Below the pieces are notes generated by a model, which was not told the origin of the DNA, made no database searches, and saw only the letters and a list, made by a program, of their open reading frames with translations. DNA of 49,515 nt from Sphingobacteriia bacterium (GTDB lineage: Bacteria; Bacteroidota; Bacteroidia; B-17B0; Aurantibacillaceae): contig RFNG01000150.1 in assembly GCA_009927275.1 (NCBI GenBank), positions 1 through 49,515 of the forward strand. The letters run 5' to 3'. The position numbers and the translations under genes are program-made. Within the stretch, counting starts at the first letter, position 1, and every line of letters starts with the position of its first letter. This document shows positions 1,048 through 10,135 of the stretch, piece by piece.

Positions 1048-3594
1048 TTAATCGGGCTTAATCCAAAGCTTTAACACCTTAGGTTCCAAAATGTCTTGCG
1101 CGTATAATTCCAAATAATATAATCCTTGTGCCAATTCAGGCAGTATTAAAGGTTGCGAAAAAGATTTTAAAATAGTATAACAAAGACGGCCGCTCACATC
1201 ACGTATATCTATTTTATGCACTTCATTAGCATTTTGAACATACAAAAATCTGGAAGTTGGATTTGGAAATATCCGGACTGTTGAAAGTAAAACATTTTCA
1301 ATACCCGAAATGCAAGGTACCGCTTCTACCGTCCAATGTGCGGTGCATACACCCGAAGCATACTGGGCTTGTAATGAAATAACCGACCCTGCAGCCGGTG
1401 TGGTAATTAATGAAGATGCTAAAACACTGCCATTCCATGTATATTGACTGGCACCGCTTGCCGTTAAGGTATGCGTAACACCTGCGCATAATGCATTTAA
1501 TCCCAAAGCATTTAAAATTTGTACGTTTAGTGTCGGTGTGGGTGCCAGGCTAAAGGTTTGCACCAAATTACTGCTACAGTTTTGCGAAGAAACACCACTT
1601 AAGGTTAGCTGAAGCACGCTTCCAGTAGGAACTACAGACCAGGTTGATGTTCCCGGCTGCATATTCCAAGAATACGAAGTTGCCCCGGAGGCGTTAAACA
1701 CTAAAGTTTGACCTGAACACAGCAAAGTAGGTGCAGTAAGCGCTAAGGTAGGTAAAGGCACTACTGTAATTTGTATAGCAGCTGTTTGGGTACAATTTTG
1801 TGCACTGCTTACGGTTACCTGAATTGCTCCAGTGGCAAGGGGAGTAAAATTAATAACCGGTCCCCATTGGGATGTAGACCAAGAATAGGTATTAACAATT
1901 ACCGAATTTAAAGGCGTGGCTTGTAACCACAGGTTTTGTCCGGCACAAAGACTTGAACTTCCCATAACCGTAACGCTGGGCAAAGCATGTACACTAAGAG
2001 TAACTGCAGTACGCGGATTTAACGTACAAGAATTTTGTGAAGCAAAAACGGAGTACGACCCTGATGCAGGATACGCCAGCGATAACACCGAACCATTACC
2101 AATAGCCGTTGTACCTTGTGCACTGGCATACCAGCTCACCGAACCAGGATAATACGCATGCGCGGTTAATACAAAAGTGGTATTAGGGCAAGCCGTAACA
2201 TTAGGCGAAACCGTTATACTGTCTGGATTACAGGGTATAGCATAGGTCCATAAATCCTGCATATTGTCGGGACTTGGAGAAGCTGCATCGCTACCCAAAC
2301 CACCAAATAGCCAGCAAGCACCATTTGGCAAAGTCCAATACGTATTATACCGACGTGATCCCGGCATATTTGTAACAGCAGTTTGGCCAAGTGTGCCATA
2401 TGTACCATTGGTGTATATACCTGTTGAGCCTTTAAGCCAGGTAAACTGATTGGTTACAATGTCATAAACATAAAAATCATTAAGCGCACCTACCGGACCG
2501 CTAGAAAAACCATAACCACCAAAAAGATAAACCTTACTGGTATTGCTTTTCCAACAAACCGCACTGTATCGTCCTCCGGGCAATACAGATGGTGAACTCA
2601 CACCCAAAATTCCGTAATTTCCAGGCTGATTAACCAACCCCGAACCTTTCATCCAAACCCATTGGTTGGTTAAACTATTGTATTTCCAAAGATCCCCTAA
2701 ATACCCTTGAGATGCAGCGCCCAAACCTGATCCGCCATATAAAAACAATTCGTTGTTATGCACCCAGTATCCGGGAAAATGCAGTGCGCCGGGCATCACG
2801 GAATTACTTGAAATTCCTAGCGAACCATATACGGCATTTTGATTTATTTGATTAGAACCTTTTACCCAGGTCCATTGATTGGTTTGTATATTATACATCC
2901 ATAAATCTGAAAGATTACCATCACCTCCAGAGGCAGCATACCCTTTGCCACCATAAAGCCATAAATTACCTTGTGCATCTACCCAGGTTGCCGATCCGTA
3001 ACGCGAACCAGGCATAACAGATGAAGAAGCTATACCTTGTGTACCGTAAATTCCAAAATTATCTGTGCTTTGCAGTCCTTTCATCCAAGTCCACTGAAGC
3101 GTCTGAGGATTAAATCGCCATAAATCGTTTAAACGGCCAAAAGTATTTGAATTGCCAAATCCGTCTCCGCCAAACATCCAAAAATTACCTTGCAAATCAA
3201 TCCACGACATCATAAACTCACGGGCACCCGGCATAGCACTTGCCGTAGCAATGGTTTGCGGTCCATAGATACCCGGGGCATCCGGGGCATTTGAGCCTTG
3301 AAGCCAAACCCATTGCTGCGATTGGGGATCAAAACGCCATAAATCATTTAACCATGATAAAACGGGTTGTGAAGAAATACCCTCGCCGCCAAACATCCAT
3401 AAACGGCCTTGTGCATCATGCCAATTGGCACTTCCATGTCTATTTCCAGGCTGATTTGAATTACTGGGAATGGCCTGTGTTCCATAAACGCCTGTTATTG
3501 TGCCATTTTGAGAGGCGCCTTTAACCCACTTAAACTGTTGTGAAAATCCATGATGCAGCGTAAGGCTTAACAGTAAATAAAAAAAATATTTCAT
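1048..3594 (-). CDS. Secreted Kelch-repeat protein with T9SS C-terminal sorting domain
   Basis: 848-aa predicted secreted protein. Residues 1-19 are a signal peptide ending GFSQ. Residues 21-454 hold six repeats of 71-74 aa, each with a W-x-W/K-G start, a YG..G turn, an M/LPG.R segment, a W.D..G.LW.FGG core and a L.DLW.Y end, as in Kelch/galactose-oxidase-like propellers. Residues 455-765 are Ser/Thr/Ala-rich beta domains resembling Ig/PKD-like modules. The last about 80 residues start VRIFPNPTS and end in a GLYYLEL-type strand, typical of a T9SS sorting domain. It should be exported by the type IX system and processed by PorU, encoded in the same window. The ligand is unknown; surface adhesion or carbohydrate binding is a guess. 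Confidence 0.85.
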   Translation of the reverse strand: MKYFFYLLLSLTLHHGFSQQFKWVKGASQNGTITGVYGTQAIPSNSNQPGNRHGSANWHDAQGRLWMFGGEGISSQPVLSWLNDLWRFDPQSQQWVWLQGSNAPDAPGIYGPQTIATASAMPGAREFMMSWIDLQGNFWMFGGDGFGNSNTFGRLNDLWRFNPQTLQWTWMKGLQSTDNFGIYGTQGIASSSVMPGSRYGSATWVDAQGNLWLYGGKGYAASGGDGNLSDLWMYNIQTNQWTWVKGSNQINQNAVYGSLGISSNSVMPGALHFPGYWVHNNELFLYGGSGLGAASQGYLGDLWKYNSLTNQWVWMKGSGLVNQPGNYGILGVSSPSVLPGGRYSAVCWKSNTSKVYLFGGYGFSSGPVGALNDFYVYDIVTNQFTWLKGSTGIYTNGTYGTLGQTAVTNMPGSRRYNTYWTLPNGACWLFGGLGSDAASPSPDNMQDLWTYAIPCNPDSITVSPNVTACPNTTFVLTAHAYYPGSVSWYASAQGTTAIGNGSVLSLAYPASGSYSVFASQNSCTLNPRTAVTLSVHALPSVTVMGSSSLCAGQNLWLQATPLNSVIVNTYSWSTSQWGPVINFTPLATGAIQVTVSSAQNCTQTAAIQITVVPLPTLALTAPTLLCSGQTLVFNASGATSYSWNMQPGTSTWSVVPTGSVLQLTLSGVSSQNCSSNLVQTFSLAPTPTLNVQILNALGLNALCAGVTHTLTASGASQYTWNGSVLASSLITTPAAGSVISLQAQYASGVCTAHWTVEAVPCISGIENVLLSTVRIFPNPTSRFLYVQNANEVHKIDIRDVSGRLCYTILKSFSQPLILPELAQGLYYLELYAQDILEPKVLKLWIKPD
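2233..3534 (-). repeat. Six in-frame Kelch-type repeats
   Basis: The coding DNA for residues 21-454 of the T9SS protein consists of six consecutive modules of 71-74 codons. Each begins with a WxWxKG-like strand and contains an FGGxG or YGGxG core. Six blades would fit a single closed beta-propeller. The copies are diverged at the DNA level, so this is an old expansion and not a fresh tandem duplication. Confidence 0.8.
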
Positions 3595-3604
3595 GTCTAT
3601 AAAA

Positions 3605-4261
3605 TTAAAGTATTACACATTTGAATACAACTTCCAAATCGGTTTCACCCGGCGCATACAAGCCGTTTTTAACACCAGGCTGATGTTTTAAAACAATTTT
3701 TATGGCCCCCGTTCCTGATGTTTTAGATTTGGTATACCATGTTGTGCGTAATCCTATCGGTAATTTGGATGCGGAATTATCGTAATCGTTATAGCGTATC
3801 CAAAGCGGGATGGATTGCAGTGATAAGACATGCGGATGAGTAGCAATCCATTGGGACGCTTCAGGATTAAAAAATACCATATGCGCATCTCCTTCACTAG
3901 TTACTTCTTTTGAAATTGTATCAACCGGTACTTGTAATTGATTTAATAAAATTAAATTCAAATGGTACGTTGATTGTTCTGATAGCACAAGCACCGAATC
4001 GGATTGCTGAATGCCGCCATAATAAGGCACTTTACCGCCTATCCCATCCGGATCCGTATAGGTATAGGTTTTAGAAATTCCACGGGCTGAATCAGTTAAA
4101 ACCAAATGGCATGAGGTAATATATTCTTCATCATTACTTGGTGGATTAGGTTTAGGGTCTTCTTTTTTACAAGAACTTCCTAAAATTATTACCAGTAAAA
4201 AACTACACGAAAAAAAATGCAAAACAGAAAATTTCATGGTGGTTAATGGTTTTGTTTTCAT
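3605..4261 (-). CDS. Small lipoprotein linked to TonB receptor
   Basis: 218-aa lipoprotein. The hydrophobic leader ends LGSSC, a lipobox, followed by a charged Pro-rich linker (KKEDPKPNPP). The mature part carries EEYITSCHLVLTD, then a DPDG turn, and later SEGDAHMVFF. This resembles a Bacteroidota lipoprotein family, often given inconsistent product names, that sits beside TonB-dependent receptors. An alternative start at Met9 (4237) would give a more ordinary signal peptide. The gene lies 40 bases downstream of the receptor gene and is probably co-transcribed. A surface-exposed partner that hands ligand to the receptor is the simplest inference; no enzymatic motif is visible. Confidence 0.72.
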   Translation of the reverse strand: MKTKPLTTMKFSVLHFFSCSFLLVIILGSSCKKEDPKPNPPSNDEEYITSCHLVLTDSARGISKTYTYTDPDGIGGKVPYYGGIQQSDSVLVLSEQSTYHLNLILLNQLQVPVDTISKEVTSEGDAHMVFFNPEASQWIATHPHVLSLQSIPLWIRYNDYDNSASKLPIGLRTTWYTKSKTSGTGAIKIVLKHQPGVKNGLYAPGETDLEVVFKCVIL

Positions 4262-4301
4262 AGTTGATGGATTTGTTAATTCTTATGATAATTTATTATT
4301 G

Positions 4302-6608
4302 TTAAAAGTGCAGTCGTAATTGCATGTTTACAGATCTTCCCAAGGCATCGGTAAAATATCTAAAACGGTCTAAATACGATCTGTACGTTTTATTAAATAG
4401 ATTTTGAATTTGCATGCCACAGCTCAAACGTTTTGATGCCCAGGAGAACGTATATTCCGTGTTAACATAACAGATTGTATATGCTTGAGGCGCTGGAGCA
4501 AAATCTCCAGTAGCAGGCAATCGCCACTGTCGGTTCACCCACTGGGCACCACATGCCATTAATACGCTTGCATGCGAATATGCTTTGAGCCATTGAATAT
4601 CAGACTTTATACAATCTGCAGGCATATAAATTAATGGTTCGTGTTTACGAATATCTTGTCCACGAACGAAAGTAATTTGCGTTGTATTTAAAATTGTGCG
4701 ATGTATTTTAAATCGCTGCAAAACATCTATTCCGTATATAGCAGCCTGGGTTTGTGCATATTCAAAAATGGGATATGCGCCCCGAAGGGTTAATGCAAAC
4801 TTTTGCGAAGGATATAAATATATATAATTCAAAAAACCGTTATAATACATCTGAGATTCCCAATGAAACCGGTCTGTTTCTGCAGTCCAGTGTATTTGAA
4901 AATTAATAACCTTTTCAGAATTTAAAACACTGTTTCCTATTTCATAAGCCCCAACACCATGGTGTAAACCATTGGCATACAATTCTAATGCGCTGGGTGG
5001 ACGCCAGGCCGAACCGATATAACATAAAAGTCTGCCGTTCAGTCGAGTGGGAATTTGCAAACCTATTTGTGCTGTATTTTGTAAAAAGGTGTGAAACGGC
5101 TCTTGTAAGCTATTTGATTTATAAAAAAAAGTTTGAAGTGTTCTGTAATCGAGGCGTGAACCAATTTCTAATAATGCCGGTCCGTATGCCGTTTTAAATA
5201 CAAGCATACGTTCTAGGGCAAACAGCCCCCCATTATGCTGAATATAATTAGGCATATAACTTGATCCCCAAGCATTGTTTTGCTGTGCCGCATATTGTAT
5301 ACCCATTTGACCTTTTACACCATGCCATTGCTGATGCTCTATAACCACTTCATGCTGATACCCCTGTAAACGATAGCTTGCTGCTGGTTTAAGTGCTGAA
5401 CTGCGAGTGTGTGAATCAAACTCTGCACGTAAGTTATTTTGTAAAGCCAAAGATGTATTCAATTGCCAGGTATCATTTATATGCCAGTGCCATGCATTTT
5501 TAATAAAATCATGCTGTACATCTTGACTCGGAGCCTCAAACTGATATGAAAAAGCATTTGATGGTTGTAGGGGTACAGATGACGCAATGGCGGCTTTTAA
5601 ATCTGCCATTGTAGCTAAATGCGATCCCGAAAATAACCCCAAGGCACTGTTATAACGGCTTACAAAAATTTCAGTACCCCAGCGGGTATTGTGATATGCC
5701 GATTGTAATGCCATATTACCCTCATGTTGTCCGGTATTTGAAATTGCATACAGAGGCGCTGATACCGTACCACCGTATTTACCTGAAGTATGTAACCGCC
5801 ACGCTATATGACCTTTGGCATCTGCATGACCCTGTATCTGCATGGCACCGGCAGGCATACGCCCATTACCAATATACTGCAATTGTGCAGATCCGTGAAT
5901 TTGTCCGGTATCGGGTAACTGCGGACTTCGCAATAAAACGACTCCCCCAATAGCATCCGATCCATACCGCACTGATGCTGCACCTTTAACAACTTCAATT
6001 TGCGTCATTAAAAACGCATCCATTTCCGGTGCATGATCGTTTCCCCATGCCTGAGACTCAAAACGCATGCCTTCCTGTAACATTAACACACGATACCCCT
6101 GCATGCCATGTATCATTACTTTTGAAATTCCAGGACCATTTTTTACCTCTGATATACCTGGGGCTTGTGCCAAAACTGCTGCAATACCAGAAGCTTGGTG
6201 CCTGTATACATCACTGGCACTAAGGGTGTGTGTAAACAGCAGGGTGTTATGTTCAGTACGATTTGCGGTTACATGCACATCATGTAACATATGTAAATAA
6301 TGTGAAAGTTGCAGGGTTTGAACTTTCGACATTGTAAGATGAACCATAAAAACAGTATCTCTACATGCATAATGATGCAGCAAAAATGTATACGTTCCCG
6401 GGCATAATGCTTGTAGCACAATGTACCCTTGGGCATCACATGTATAAACGTTACCGCTTAAAACATCTTTTAATTGCGCATACGATGCATCGGCTATTTC
6501 ATCGTGTTCTGACAACGCAAGGGTATAGCTCAAATTGCAGTTTTGCGCCGAGGGCTTTGTATATATAAAAATAATTATGGCCAAAATAAGGCTTAAACGT
6601 AAAAGCAT
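4302..6608 (-). CDS. TonB-dependent outer-membrane receptor, probable metal or metal-complex uptake
   Basis: The ATG at 6608 gives MLLRLSLILAIIIFIYTKPSAQ, a clear signal peptide, and a 768-aa protein. An in-frame start at 6722 would add 38 residues and overlap the upstream gene, so it is rejected. Residues about 22-110 form a small regulatory-like beta domain. A plug follows, with GISEVKNGPGISKVMIHGM and VVKGAASVRYGSDAIGG. The remainder is a 22-strand-type barrel ending in LRLHF, whose terminal Phe is the usual outer-membrane signature. The neighbouring His-rich protein and lipoprotein suggest copper, zinc or another metal as substrate, but the receptor alone does not show this. Confidence 0.85.
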   Translation of the reverse strand: MLLRLSLILAIIIFIYTKPSAQNCNLSYTLALSEHDEIADASYAQLKDVLSGNVYTCDAQGYIVLQALCPGTYTFLLHHYACRDTVFMVHLTMSKVQTLQLSHYLHMLHDVHVTANRTEHNTLLFTHTLSASDVYRHQASGIAAVLAQAPGISEVKNGPGISKVMIHGMQGYRVLMLQEGMRFESQAWGNDHAPEMDAFLMTQIEVVKGAASVRYGSDAIGGVVLLRSPQLPDTGQIHGSAQLQYIGNGRMPAGAMQIQGHADAKGHIAWRLHTSGKYGGTVSAPLYAISNTGQHEGNMALQSAYHNTRWGTEIFVSRYNSALGLFSGSHLATMADLKAAIASSVPLQPSNAFSYQFEAPSQDVQHDFIKNAWHWHINDTWQLNTSLALQNNLRAEFDSHTRSSALKPAASYRLQGYQHEVVIEHQQWHGVKGQMGIQYAAQQNNAWGSSYMPNYIQHNGGLFALERMLVFKTAYGPALLEIGSRLDYRTLQTFFYKSNSLQEPFHTFLQNTAQIGLQIPTRLNGRLLCYIGSAWRPPSALELYANGLHHGVGAYEIGNSVLNSEKVINFQIHWTAETDRFHWESQMYYNGFLNYIYLYPSQKFALTLRGAYPIFEYAQTQAAIYGIDVLQRFKIHRTILNTTQITFVRGQDIRKHEPLIYMPADCIKSDIQWLKAYSHASVLMACGAQWVNRQWRLPATGDFAPAPQAYTICYVNTEYTFSWASKRLSCGMQIQNLFNKTYRSYLDRFRYFTDALGRSVNMQLRLHF

Positions 6609-6640
6609 AAAATTGATTAGATTTAAACTGTAAAAAAAAA

Positions 6641-6949
6641 TCAGCTTAAAGTAGGTGGAGCACGCCCGGAAATATATAAAAATGCTACTGATGCCAATGC
6701 CTCCGAAGCATTTGGTAAACACTTATACCATTGCTGAGGTATCCATAATTGAATAAAAGAAGGTTCAAAAAAAGTTGTTTGCTGATGAACAATTAAATCA
6801 TCTAATGCACACTTTGTAGTGGCGGGGCGATCGGTTTGTGTAGTATTAACATCATGGTGATGAACAAACCAGTGGTGCACCGTTTGCTTGGGAACGAGTA
6901 AAATTAAAATCAACGTGAGTGTCCAAATTGTATACCCTGCTGATTTCAT
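6641..6949 (-). CDS. Short His-rich membrane protein, DUF2946-like
   Basis: 102-aa protein with an N-terminal hydrophobic helix (residues 8-20), a His cluster (HHWFVHHHD, about 25-33), a Cys at about 47 and the C-terminal tail SGRAPP. Short Bacteroidota proteins with a signal anchor, a His/Cys-rich loop and a C-terminal R-x-PP tail occur beside metal efflux or TonB uptake genes; the DUF2946 family has the same layout. It could bind or sense metal in the periplasm. It is the first gene of a three-gene minus-strand unit with the receptor and lipoprotein. Family membership is inferred from layout, as sequence conservation is low. Confidence 0.62.
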   Translation of the reverse strand: MKSAGYTIWTLTLILILLVPKQTVHHWFVHHHDVNTTQTDRPATTKCALDDLIVHQQTTFFEPSFIQLWIPQQWYKCLPNASEALASVAFLYISGRAPPTLS

Positions 6950-6953
6950 AAGC

Positions 6954-6961
6954 CAAATATA
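6954..6961 (-). promoter_or_regulatory. -7 promoter element upstream of the metal locus
   Basis: On the minus strand this reads TATATTTG, an exact match to the Bacteroidota -7 consensus TAnnTTTG. Only four bases separate it from the ATG at 6949, so the transcript would be leaderless or nearly so. No convincing TTTG -33 box is visible 19-21 bases upstream. Confidence 0.5.
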
Positions 6962-6968
6962 AAAATAT

Positions 6969-8837
6969 TTATTTACGTAACTGCTGACGTTGTTTGGCCA
7001 TTTCTTCTAATCGTTTTTGAAAGCCCGAAACCTTTACCGGTTTTTTCATATTATCTTCAAGTTGTGCTCTGATTTTTGCATCACTTACAAACCATTTGAT
7101 AATATAATTTTGGCCAAACGTAAACATGTTAGCTAAAAAATAATACCAACTTAAACCAGCAGCATACTTATTCATAACGGCTAAAAATATAACCGGCATA
7201 AAATACATCATAAATTTCATACCGGGCATTTGATTGTTTTGCTGAGGCATCATGCTACTGTTCATGTAGGTATAAACGATGGTACTAACAAACATTAACG
7301 CAGCAAATAAACTGATGTGATCGCCATAAGCCCAATTAATTATGGGCAATGCTCCAAAAGTCCAAATGCTGTCGTACGTACTTAAATCATCGGCCCATAA
7401 AAACGCTTTTTGACGTAATTCAATAGCAGCAGGAACAAAATTAAATAATGCAATTAAAATCGGAAATTGCAATAATAGTGGAATACAGCCTGACAATGGA
7501 TTTACACCGGCTTTTCGGTATAACGCCATTTGTTCTTGTTGTTTTTTAAGCGGATCAGCAGAGGCGCCAAACTTAGCATTTAACTGATCGGTTTCCGGTT
7601 TTAAAACGCGCATTTTAGCGCCACTCATATACGTTTTATAGGCTATTGGAAATAATAAGATTTTAACTATGAGGGTTAATATTAAAATCACAATACCCAT
7701 ATTCATAGTATCTAATGCATTAAATAATGGAATAACCAGCCATTTATTAATGTAACTGAAAATACTCCATCCGGTTGGTATAATTTTTTCCAACTGCATA
7801 TTAAACGCTTGCAGCGTGGGGTAATGATTGGGGCCAAAATAAAAATTATATGTAAATTGTTCCTGTGCAAGATGTTTGTAGGGTATTCCCAATTCTGTAG
7901 CTGCACGGGCAATTGCCGCATGTGAATCTGGTCTTTGCTGTAATTCTACCGCACTACCCGATTTTACAAATCCCACTGGCGACCATACCGTTGCATTAAA
8001 AAATTGCTGTTTAAATGACACCCACTGAATGTCTGCTTCTTGAATTTCCAAACGCTCCGAAGCCATGGGATTAATGTTATCGGGGTCTTCTACTGTATTT
8101 TTATAATAAATGGTAGCTACTTCTTTTTCTTTTGATTTATGCTGCTCTTGGCTGGGATACAATACCGACCATTGCCACTGCAATTGATCTTCTGTGGTTG
8201 AAAAAATATTTTGCATGCCGGTAAAAAGCCATTTACTTTCCAATGTAAATCCATCTTTAGGCAGCTTATATTCCAATTCCATATAAGAACCGGGTTTTGA
8301 TGTTTCAAGGCGCAATCGTAGCGTGTTTGATCTCTGTTCAATAATTTTAAAATAAAATTCAGAGCTGGCAAACATACGCGTGCTGTTGTATGCACTCCAT
8401 TGTAAATTCATTTTACTGGAATCTGCAATAAAAAGCTGAAGCGGTTTTACAGAATTAGGTCTATGATACCCTTTCAATTCAACCTGCTGAATTGATCCGC
8501 CTAAGGTATTTACATAAATTTTAACATTCTTATTCTCCAAAACACATGTTTGAGCTTGTCCGTTTCGAGCCGTATAAAAATCTAAATACTGATCACGTTC
8601 GCGTTGCATAAGCACACTATCCGAAACTTTTATAATAGCCAAATCGCCGGGCTGTTGAGGCGACTTTTTTTGTTGTAATGCGCGCGCCTTTTCAAATGCA
8701 AGGGCTTCAGCGCGTGCTACAGAATCGCGTTGTTTTTTTGCCTGTTCAATTTGTGCGTTGCTGGGTCCAGAAAAGTATAACCATACCCCCATTATTAATG
8801 CAATTAAACCCAGTCCGAGTAAGGATTTTTTATCCAC
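6969..8837 (-). CDS. yidC: Membrane protein insertase YidC
   Basis: 622-aa inner-membrane insertase that helps fold and insert membrane proteins with or without SecYEG. Residues 5-22 are the first membrane segment. Residues about 60-345 form the large periplasmic domain typical of Gram-negative YidC. The core from about 360 to 590 has the conserved insertase helices (WLVIPLFNALDTMNMGIVI, a positively charged cytoplasmic hairpin, GCIPLLLQFPILIALF). The basic C-terminal tail (KKPVKVSGFQKRLEEMAKQ) could contact ribosomes. The start codon is GTG, supported by the MDKKS N-terminus, which resembles that of other Bacteroidota YidC proteins. A TACCTTTG promoter element lies just upstream. Confidence 0.97.
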   Translation of the reverse strand: MDKKSLLGLGLIALIMGVWLYFSGPSNAQIEQAKKQRDSVARAEALAFEKARALQQKKSPQQPGDLAIIKVSDSVLMQRERDQYLDFYTARNGQAQTCVLENKNVKIYVNTLGGSIQQVELKGYHRPNSVKPLQLFIADSSKMNLQWSAYNSTRMFASSEFYFKIIEQRSNTLRLRLETSKPGSYMELEYKLPKDGFTLESKWLFTGMQNIFSTTEDQLQWQWSVLYPSQEQHKSKEKEVATIYYKNTVEDPDNINPMASERLEIQEADIQWVSFKQQFFNATVWSPVGFVKSGSAVELQQRPDSHAAIARAATELGIPYKHLAQEQFTYNFYFGPNHYPTLQAFNMQLEKIIPTGWSIFSYINKWLVIPLFNALDTMNMGIVILILTLIVKILLFPIAYKTYMSGAKMRVLKPETDQLNAKFGASADPLKKQQEQMALYRKAGVNPLSGCIPLLLQFPILIALFNFVPAAIELRQKAFLWADDLSTYDSIWTFGALPIINWAYGDHISLFAALMFVSTIVYTYMNSSMMPQQNNQMPGMKFMMYFMPVIFLAVMNKYAAGLSWYYFLANMFTFGQNYIIKWFVSDAKIRAQLEDNMKKPVKVSGFQKRLEEMAKQRQQLRK

Positions 8838-8857
8838 TGTTTTATAATTTTGTGCAA

Positions 8858-8865
8858 CAAAGGTA
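8858..8865 (-). promoter_or_regulatory. -7 promoter element upstream of yidC
   Basis: The minus strand reads TACCTTTG, an exact TAnnTTTG match ending 20 bases before the GTG start of yidC. A TTTA sits 20 bases further upstream, one mismatch from the TTTG -33 box. yidC may therefore be transcribed separately from the symporter gene. Confidence 0.6.
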
Positions 8866-8884
8866 CACTATTTTACATTCGTTT

Positions 8885-10135
8885 TTAAAAGCCTTTTTCG
8901 CCTTCAAGACGGGCAATTACAGCACTGGCTACGGCATTTCCAATAACATTGGTAGCACTACGCCCCATGTCTAAAAACTGATCAACGGCTAAAAGTAATA
9001 ATAGGCCTTCGGTTGGAATATTAAAATAACTTAACATGCCAGCTATAACTACTAAAGATGCACGCGGAACTCCGGCCATACCTTTACTGGTAACCATTAA
9101 TATCAACATCATTTGTAGCTGGTCGGGCATGCTCAGCACAATGCCATAACTTTGAGCTATAAAAACAGTTGCAAAGGTCATATACATAATACTGCCGTCG
9201 AGGTTAAAAGAATATCCCAGCGGTAATACAAAACTTACTATCCGGTTACTTATGCCATGTTTTTCAAGCGCTTCAATGGTTTTAGGCATAGCACTTTCAC
9301 TGCTTGAGGTACTAAAGGCCAGCAACACCGGCTCGCGAATATCACGCATTAAAGCCCAAAATTGTATTTTAAAAGCCCTGCAAACCAATGCTAAAATTAC
9401 AAATGCAAAAAACAACAAGCCTCCAAAAAAACAAGAGATGAGGTACAAATAACCATATAAAACACCTAAGCCCTTTACTGTAACCACAGCACTTAAAGCC
9501 CCAAATACACCAATGGGAGCAAGTTTCATAACCATGTGTGTTAATTTAAACATTACCGCACTCAGTGCGTCAATGCCTTTTAGTAATACCAAGCCTTTTG
9601 ATTTGCTTGTTGCAATTGCTATTCCCAAAAGCAACGAAAATACCACAATGGGTAAAATCTCATTTCCGGCAAGGGATTTAAAAATACTCTCCGGAATAAC
9701 ATGTTCTACAAAATGTAACATTGAATGCTGTTGGGGAGCAATTTGTGCAGCACCCTCAGGAAGTGGCAATTGCATTACCGTACCGGGCTTAAACACATTT
9801 ACCAGTATCAGTCCTAAAAGCAAAGCTACAAGTGTTGCCAAAACAAAATATACCAGGGTTTTTAACCCCAATCGTCCTACCGTATACACATCCTCTATTT
9901 TACCCACACCTACAACTAAAATTGAAAATACCAGGGGTGCAATAATCATCTTAATAAGATGTAAAAAAACCTGACTTAATACAGAAAAGCCCTCTGCATA
10001 TACTGTATAAGCCGCCTTTAAAGCCGCACCCGAATAATATTTTGGAAGTACCACATGCAGCATTTGCCCAGTTACAAGGGCTAAAATCATGGCTAATATA
10101 ATCCAGCGTAACAGCCCTGTAGTCAAATGCTTCAT
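8885..10135 (-). CDS. Dicarboxylate/amino acid:cation symporter (GltP/DctA family)
   Basis: Inner-membrane secondary transporter of the DAACS (SLC1-like) family, 416 aa from the ATG at 10135; a TTG three codons earlier is less likely. It likely imports glutamate, aspartate or C4-dicarboxylates with Na+ or H+. Eight hydrophobic segments and two re-entrant loops can be followed. Diagnostic motifs are the serine-rich STSSSESAMPKT of hairpin 1, GYSFNLDGSIMYMTFATVFIAQ in TM7, and DQFLDMGRSATNVIGNAVA of TM8, where D and R set substrate specificity. The gene starts nine bases after the murF stop and is probably co-transcribed. Exact substrate cannot be assigned. Confidence 0.9.
   Translation of the reverse strand: MKHLTTGLLRWIILAMILALVTGQMLHVVLPKYYSGAALKAAYTVYAEGFSVLSQVFLHLIKMIIAPLVFSILVVGVGKIEDVYTVGRLGLKTLVYFVLATLVALLLGLILVNVFKPGTVMQLPLPEGAAQIAPQQHSMLHFVEHVIPESIFKSLAGNEILPIVVFSLLLGIAIATSKSKGLVLLKGIDALSAVMFKLTHMVMKLAPIGVFGALSAVVTVKGLGVLYGYLYLISCFFGGLLFFAFVILALVCRAFKIQFWALMRDIREPVLLAFSTSSSESAMPKTIEALEKHGISNRIVSFVLPLGYSFNLDGSIMYMTFATVFIAQSYGIVLSMPDQLQMMLILMVTSKGMAGVPRASLVVIAGMLSYFNIPTEGLLLLLAVDQFLDMGRSATNVIGNAVASAVIARLEGEKGF

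Follow-up and report, generated by a model that had tools for sequence, protein, structure and literature searches.

A candidate nascent-chain zinc sensor encoded ahead of a ZnuD-like receptor and a lipoprotein in Bacteroidota

Introduction

Nascent-peptide control of metal genes is represented for magnesium by MgtL and, among the transition metals, we found it described in the literature for copper alone. The closest system to the one considered here is the operon bp2923-bfrG-bp2921 of Bordetella pertussis, which starts with CruR (Bp2923, DUF2946), a protein with a CXXC motif at residues 90-93 and an RAPP motif at residues 139-142 (PMC9426467). Changes in RAPP abolish expression of the TonB transporter, changes in CXXC strongly impair copper control, and control is exerted by Rho-dependent termination (PMC9426467). 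CruR has been shown to arrest in vitro while RAPP codons three and four occupy the P and A sites, and open reading frames (ORFs) carrying RAPP or RGPP upstream of TonB receptors are described as universal in Gram-negatives (Fujiwara et al. 2025, PMC12992588); the association itself is thus already published and is not new. Control of a metal gene by an exported protein during its synthesis is also known from CutF (PMC9973294), which differs from what follows in its metal (copper), its poly-proline motif and the multicopper oxidase CutO encoded downstream (PMC9973294; PMC10987492). In this study we analyze a locus of three genes, a small ORF, a TonB-dependent receptor and a lipoprotein, in a stretch of 49,515 nucleotides (nt) of a Sphingobacteriia bacterium (contig RFNG01000150.1), which throughout is called the window.

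Our reading, which we consider reasonably probable though well short of assured, is that this locus is a zinc-acquisition operon under the control of a nascent-chain zinc sensor encoded by its first ORF. If true, it would extend this form of control to a second transition metal and a second phylum, probably with another output as well (a nested intrinsic terminator instead of Rho), and it would explain how zinc uptake is controlled in Bacteroidota without Zur. Our literature searches turned up neither zinc sensing by a nascent peptide nor the spacing that Bacteroidota show, and neither the nested hairpin nor an alternation with a Zur-type site. The elements on which the argument turns are listed below, with the upstream neighbor last.

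Small ORF: 6641..6949, minus strand; 102 amino acids (aa), HHWFVHHHD cluster, C-terminal RAPPTLS; candidate metal-sensing RAPP arrest peptide (leader ORF), with ligand-like residues His25, His30, His32 and Cys47 and a putative arrest motif R96-A-P-P99.
RAPP codons (cgt gct cca cct): 6653..6664, minus strand; 3 codons ahead of the stop.
TonB-dependent receptor, ZnuD-like: 4302..6608, minus strand; 768 aa with the ATG as start (a longer reading from a GTG appears in the mechanical ORF list).
Lipoprotein: 3605..4261, minus strand; 218 aa, Cys31, DPDG and GDAHMVFF motifs, without Pfam or NCBIfam family.
Candidate hairpin: 6622..6650, minus strand; spans the last codons and stop of the small ORF, UUUAAGCUG / CAGUUUAAA, 9 base pairs including one G-U, 11-nt loop with a T run.
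yidC (named by eye): 6969..8837, minus strand; directly upstream of the small ORF, a neighbor and probably no part of the system.

Results and Discussion

Conservation of the gene set

An earlier note on this DNA, made from the letters alone, had described the 102-aa protein with its histidine cluster and RAPP tail, the TonB receptor and the lipoprotein with DPDG and GDAHMVFF as a compact set on one strand with short gaps. The description is accurate: all three genes are on the minus strand, 32 nt separate the small ORF from the receptor and 40 nt the receptor from the lipoprotein, while 19 nt lie between the end of yidC and the start of the small ORF. When the three proteins were compared with Pfam and NCBIfam only the receptor was recognized (Plug and barrel domains), with zero matches for the small ORF and for the lipoprotein, and the region 3400-9000 of the window has no match in Rfam.

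The lipoprotein is present in 43 of 100 genomes, the window's own genome counted. We fetched 40 loci around it, and clustered the 512 genes called in these loci and in the window. A receptor match occurs in 37 of the 40 loci; in the clustering, the lipoprotein is found in 41 sources and the receptor in 37, and four families of small ORFs emerge (#2, #5, #7 and #10), which are mostly located ahead of the receptor. Sequence of 400 nt or more before the receptor is available in 34 sources (the window is one of them), and in 30 of these an ORF ending in R[AG]PP immediately precedes the receptor. A second set, of named genomes, was obtained by a pattern and tblastn scan, with 80 loci kept of at least 581 confirmed relatives: here the lipoprotein follows the receptor within 400 nt in 57 loci, and an R[AG]PP ORF precedes the receptor in 30. 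Cultured bacteria with the small ORF include Fluviicola chungangensis, Pontibacter chinhatensis and Cytophaga aurantiaca. Co-occurrence of the three families is therefore far above chance, and the question raised in the earlier note, whether they are found together elsewhere, is answered in the affirmative.

Conserved features of the small ORF

The 512 genes contain 40 instances of the R[AG]PP motif, every one in a small ORF of the leader type, 39 of them at most 15 residues from the C-terminus and one 16 residues from it; the window's own small ORF stands outside this count, as it was masked by the over-long receptor reading. Across 49 divergent members from all the families, the strictly invariant residues are only the R, P and P of the motif (49/49). 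Residue 97 is G in 28 members and A in 21, C47 is present in 47/49 and H25 in 45/49. Within family #2 (16 relatives and the window) the invariant positions are P20, K21, H25, H30, H32, C47, R96, P98 and P99.

The distance between the last conserved cysteine and the arginine of the motif is also constrained. It is 49 residues in the window (Cys47 to Arg96) and 49-50 in all 17 members of family #2 with RxPP; in the CxxC family #5 it is 46 in 11/12 members and 45 in the other one, in family #10 it is 45-46, and in family #7 it is 47-48 in 5/6 members (the sixth was not measured). In the named genomes a cysteine lies 45-50 residues ahead of the arginine in 30/30 ORFs, while six-residue stretches elsewhere in the same ORFs contain a cysteine in 1 to 11 of the 30. 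For comparison, the distance from the metal ligand C93 to R139 in CruR is 46 residues, and arrest keeps the CruR operon on (PMC9426467). The two systems are also alike in their layout, with a short first ORF carrying a C-terminal RAPP, followed by a TonB-dependent transporter and by a third gene, so that the small ORF heads its gene order as CruR does, a likeness of position only. Beyond this, CruR has a CxxC motif, responds to copper, acts through Rho-dependent termination in a gap of 162 bp, and has a PepSY_TM protein as third gene (PMC9426467), whereas the window has a His/Cys set with a lone Cys at 49 residues, a zinc context, a gap of 32 nt and a lipoprotein as third gene, and a subset of its relatives has terminator-like hairpins at the stop. 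A CXXC about 46 residues before RAPP is found in family #5.

The small ORF likewise shares two features with the peptides surveyed by Fujiwara et al., small exported proteins with the motif near the C-terminus, encoded upstream of TonB-dependent receptors: its RAPP is close to the stop and it lies just upstream of the receptor, a position from which it may control this gene. The survey differs in that it counts its cases by downstream class, and in its main text the word 'zinc' has 0 occurrences, with no Zur site and no Bacteroidota family named in the extracts (PMC12992588). The RAPP tail as the sole strictly conserved part, the Cys and His residues, and the CruR-like spacing together indicate that the small ORF most likely encodes a nascent-chain metal sensor. 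Judging from these sequence features, we are rather confident that it is a regulatory RxPP leader, not a subunit for transport.

The earlier note had instead assigned the small protein to a dedicated metal importer, a view close to one in which the mature protein, periplasmic or anchored in the membrane, acts as a metal chaperone together with the receptor. A hydrophobic N-terminus (read by eye), the His/Cys cluster, and the adjacency to the importer genes in the 30 of 34 sources mentioned above would all suit such a protein. However, the best-conserved part is four residues at the C-terminus, set at a constant distance from the cysteine within a tail that is otherwise unconserved; hairpins nest at the stop codon (see below); and the small ORF is missing from 48/78 named loci that retain the receptor, 30 of which have a palindrome of Zur type. 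On balance a chaperone appears quite unlikely. The importer proposal is thus supported for the receptor, which is ZnuD-like, and for the receptor-lipoprotein pair, which has a Zur-type site in relatives, and is not supported for the small protein, in which only R-x-P-P is strictly conserved (n = 49).

We also considered an arrest peptide that monitors Sec or YidC. A gene recognized by eye as yidC precedes family #2 in 8/40 fetched loci and in the window, one recognized by eye as yidD lies between leader ORF and receptor in three loci (L033, L049, L053), and RAPP peptides upstream of localization genes are known (PMC10987492). Published monitors are upstream of the gene that they control, though, while in the present case the order is reversed, with yidC preceding the ORF; in the remaining fetched loci that have the ORF, yidC is not its direct neighbor, and it is the metal-ligand residues that are conserved, all of which makes this explanation very unlikely.

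In favor of the metal sensor, L041, L044 and L046 have, beside yidC, relics of family #2 that are no longer directly before the receptor, and in these the three His, the conserved Cys and the RxPP are all lost; as the three loci are close relatives, the joint loss may be a single event.

Receptor and lipoprotein

The best solved relative of the receptor is ZnuD of Neisseria (4rdr, 4rdt, 4rvw), whether by single-sequence search, by profile (134 bits, the next match having 83), by Foldseek (E 6e-36 to the receptor model, pLDDT 82.5) or by VIA-align (Z 38.8, 2.2 Å over 580 residues). The zinc ligands of ZnuD are D99, H100, E340 and H499 (PMC4557270). In the printed alignment D99 and H100 correspond to D191 and H192 of the window receptor, and H499 to H549; in 34 receptors position 191 is D or E in 34/34, and H192 and H549 are each present in 34/34. 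Three of the four ligands could be mapped in this way, since E340 is outside the aligned stretches; E396 of the receptor is invariant. Sequence identity to ZnuD is about 18%, and the receptor has an extra N-terminal domain with conserved Cys. In this N-terminal extension C24, C69, H79, C82 and H103 are nearly invariant, perhaps as a further metal-handling site.

The vitamin B12 receptor BtuB ranks lower than ZnuD by fold (Z 33.0 versus 38.8).

In 39 lipoprotein sequences D70, D72, H127, D159, H193 and D208 are invariant, as is C31. The model is a confident beta-sandwich (pLDDT 86.6), and the fold search yielded nothing clearly related to it (Foldseek E 5e-3 at best; VIA Z of at most 8.0, mostly Ig-like and RhoGDI sandwiches). 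A match to Tfb1 in a profile search of Protein Data Bank (PDB) sequences (E 4e-5) is weak and was taken as due to chance.

A palindrome of Zur type

In the named genomes, the palindrome TGCAAC-N3-GTTGCA was sought in the 400 nt before the first ORF of each operon (for L120, the 91 nt available). It is present in 30/48 loci without the small ORF and in 1/30 with it (L119); a relaxed pattern gives 34/48 versus 3/30 in the same stretch, and of the fetched loci with the ORF 1/30 (L062) has the palindrome. A strict exclusion, 30/48 versus 0/30 within 400 nt of the receptor, was dropped, because in loci that have a leader ORF most of those 400 nt belong to it. Palindrome and leader ORF thus exclude each other strongly, though not absolutely.

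Searched over whole genomes, the palindrome occurs 7 times in Dyadobacter koreensis, 11 in D. tibetensis, 3 in Runella zeae and 2 in Spirosoma arboris, against 0, 0, 1 and 0 occurrences, respectively, of the reversed pattern. These sites lie at the receptor-lipoprotein pair, at a Fur-family gene and the MerC gene divergent from it, at ZigA-like GTPases, at further receptors, at a further lipoprotein and at other genes. D. koreensis has a Fur-family gene at L168:5151-5573. For the site genes that were tested, Pfam confirmed FUR, MerC and cobW, and the NCBIfam model for the zinc chaperone ZigA scored 553.6 bits with a cut-off of 600. The usual gene content of Zur regulons resembles this set, which looks like a Zur-type regulon. 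A second, weak Fur-family gene was recognized in eight of 60 relatives searched for FUR, and in four of the eight (G027, G030, G034, G073) the palindrome adjoins it.

The few loci in which the two elements meet are informative. In L062 and L119 the palindrome either closely precedes the RxPP ORF or coincides with its start, and in L205 about 450 nt separate it from an RAPP ORF with a ZigA-like gene behind it; this co-occurrence ties the ORF to the palindrome regulon. Leader ORF and Zur-type site can, then, coexist as two layers. In a tree of 104 receptors, 53 of them with a leader ORF, the well-supported branches force at least 7 changes of leader-ORF state.

In the window there is no palindrome with fewer than two mismatches. 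Its own genome has one FUR match, which falls in the strong Fur/PerR-like class, together with a ZIP importer and weak cobW matches (best 37.9 bits); searches of this genome gave no ZnuA and no Zur-like gene. The sole palindrome in it (C104:3779) is inside an ORF and probably a chance occurrence.

Identity of the metal

Receptor and lipoprotein likely form a zinc importer, and the metal of the system is to all appearances zinc, an assignment in which we have good though not full confidence. The narrowing from metal to zinc follows from the receptor being nearest to ZnuD and from the same receptor-lipoprotein pair having a Zur-type operator in relatives; the second of these, seen in relatives that lack the small ORF, is the strongest pointer to zinc. 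Copper is the metal that CruR would suggest: the small ORF would be a divergent CruR/DUF2946 sensor and the receptor would import copper or a copper complex. The three-gene layout, RAPP, and the CxxC spacing of family #5 are all as in CruR, 3/49 members match PF11162 (DUF2946) weakly (best E 0.073, and no match for the window), OprC is second to ZnuD in the VIA fold comparison, and M662 of the receptor is nearly invariant. But the invariant receptor columns include neither Met nor Cys, ZnuD is above OprC (Z 38.8 versus 35.2), the palindrome regulon has Fur-family, MerC and ZigA-like zinc-chaperone genes, and copper-related RAPP upstream ORFs were not found in Bacteroidota in the survey, as far as its extracts go (Fujiwara et al. 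2025, PMC12992588). We therefore regard copper as unlikely.

A heme receptor, with the operon serving heme or iron, deserves mention for a different reason, namely that NCBIfam models for heme, hemoglobin and ZnuD all match the receptor below their cut-offs (for ZnuD, NF038289, 100.1 bits with 950 needed), the top matches being heme families, and that PhuR, ChuA and ShuA are close to it in fold. Heme is nevertheless very unlikely, given that in 34/34 receptors the plug His has an acidic neighbor, which is also the case in ZnuD, and given the context of a Zur-type regulon; ZnuD itself was at first misannotated as a heme receptor (PMC4557270).

Hairpins at the end of the small ORF

At 54 distinct ORF ends, compact stems were found in 21, versus an expectation of 6.6 (standard deviation 2.3) with the downstream part shuffled. 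A compact stem with a T-rich tail was found in 15/54, versus 2.4 (standard deviation 1.5) and a maximum of 7 over 500 shuffles; this measure is a second statistic, chosen on the same data after a statistic based on pairs in the minimum free energy (MFE) structure. As a control, 85 junctions between receptor and lipoprotein had 3 stems, 0 of them with a T tail, and no excess over shuffles. The mean folding z was -1.05 for the ORF ends and +0.16 for the junctions. In a separate comparison, where the 5' arm falls depends in part on the way in which stems were sought.

A scan of 53 regions in which the position was left free, made with no shuffles, shows hairpins with T tails that start within 10 nt past the RxPP codons in 15/53. 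A second peak appears at 50-59 nt (12/53), and all other bins hold 0-5. The gap between ORF and receptor is 30-110 nt in 33/54 distinct relatives. A ribosome stalled at RxPP would cover about 10 nt beyond the motif, as follows from the size of its footprint, so that with hairpins starting at most 10 nt after RxPP the stalled ribosome would prevent the hairpin from forming. We give about even chances to the blocking of a nested terminator by the stalled ribosome being the actual output. As a separate observation, the hairpin and T-rich tail of the second peak lie, in several loci, just ahead of the receptor start codon. A generic scan of the window for terminators and promoters gave no more than shuffles would lead one to expect.

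Proposed mechanism

The gene set, the motifs with their spacing, the Zur-type operator in relatives and the enrichment of hairpins are computed; from them we infer arrest, zinc binding, the direction of control and the masking of a terminator in the following form. When zinc is scarce, the ribosome translating the small ORF would stall at the C-terminal R-A-P-P and would cover the last codons and the stop; a terminating (or otherwise expression-blocking) hairpin could not form, and receptor and lipoprotein would be made. With enough zinc, the His/Cys cluster, which is 49-71 residues from the arrest point and would be at or just past the exit of the tunnel, would bind zinc, and the folding or pull driven by zinc would free the ribosome, permit the hairpin and turn the uptake genes off. 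The receptor would move zinc across the outer membrane, with the lipoprotein as an accessory metal-binding partner. More tentatively, and with somewhat more doubt than belief, we suggest that zinc-sensing nascent peptides of this kind are widespread, with a His3-Cys site about 49 residues from the active center and an arrest that blocks an intrinsic terminator at the peptide's own stop, and that they take over from Zur in much of Bacteroidota and back it up in some genomes.

Several results speak against these proposals. CruR, the proteobacterial relative, responds to copper, and zinc has little effect on it (PMC9426467). The window's small protein shares 13-28% identity with the other members, and no family model recognizes it. 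For the window receptor the NCBIfam heme model scores above the ZnuD model (126 versus 100 bits). With regard to the hairpins, the frequency of any MFE pair across the stop is not above shuffles (32/54 versus a mean of 31), and the window's own hairpin is weak by itself: at -6.1 kcal/mol (z = -1.55) it is equaled or bettered by 21/200 shuffles, z is -0.80 when more of the sequence is folded, and its stem is not followed by a clean T tail. No published Zur site from Bacteroidota was found with which the palindrome could be compared.

The alternation of leader ORF and palindrome is also less compelling when relatedness is taken into account. With the relaxed pattern, and with a search that begins 400 nt ahead of the first ORF and extends through to the receptor, the site is present in 5/53 receptors with the ORF versus 35/51 without; 16/104 have neither leader ORF nor site, and four relatives (G027, G030, G034, G073) have a Zur-like gene plus an RxPP ORF. 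Fisher's test, which ignores relatedness, gives 3.7e-14 for the narrower stretch and 3e-10 for the wider one. The alternation is clustered by lineage, however: among 7 independent pairs a mean of 1.8 differ in the expected way and 0.5 in the other way (median p 1), and in the narrower stretch a mean of 3.3 of 7 are opposite and 0 the same (median p 0.25). Neither result is significant; the test needs at least 6 informative pairs, more than either analysis had.

Additional observations on the loci

Three loci (L032, L034, L035) have two R[AG]PP ORFs in tandem ahead of the receptor, belonging to different families. An additional RGPP ORF of the CxxC type is found downstream of the lipoprotein in L038, L041 and L044-L047, followed in L038 and L047 by an exported-looking protein of 508-509 aa. 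Near-miss C-termini upstream of receptors or close to them occur in L069, L117 and L124 (NKGPPTILGILS, NKGPPLA and NKAPPVVLA, with Lys replacing Arg), and are possibly decayed or alternative arrest motifs. The zinc locus is repeatedly linked to yidC and yidD (both named by eye), the first before the leader and the second between leader and receptor. In L064, L065 and L066 small lipoprotein-like families (#8, #14 and #51) accompany the receptor-lipoprotein pair together with COG0523-type GTPases, and are candidates for extra parts of zinc uptake; a neighbor in L065 is CDF-like, as named by eye. L132 (NETF01000058.1), which is titled 'Unicellular cyanobacterium SU3', has a Bacteroidota-type locus and is probably a contaminating contig. 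Finally, the gene directly downstream of the lipoprotein in the window (1048-3594, minus strand) encodes a Kelch-repeat protein with a T9SS sorting tail; it belongs to gene family #12, which is present in four sources, and is thus not a regular neighbor of the zinc genes.

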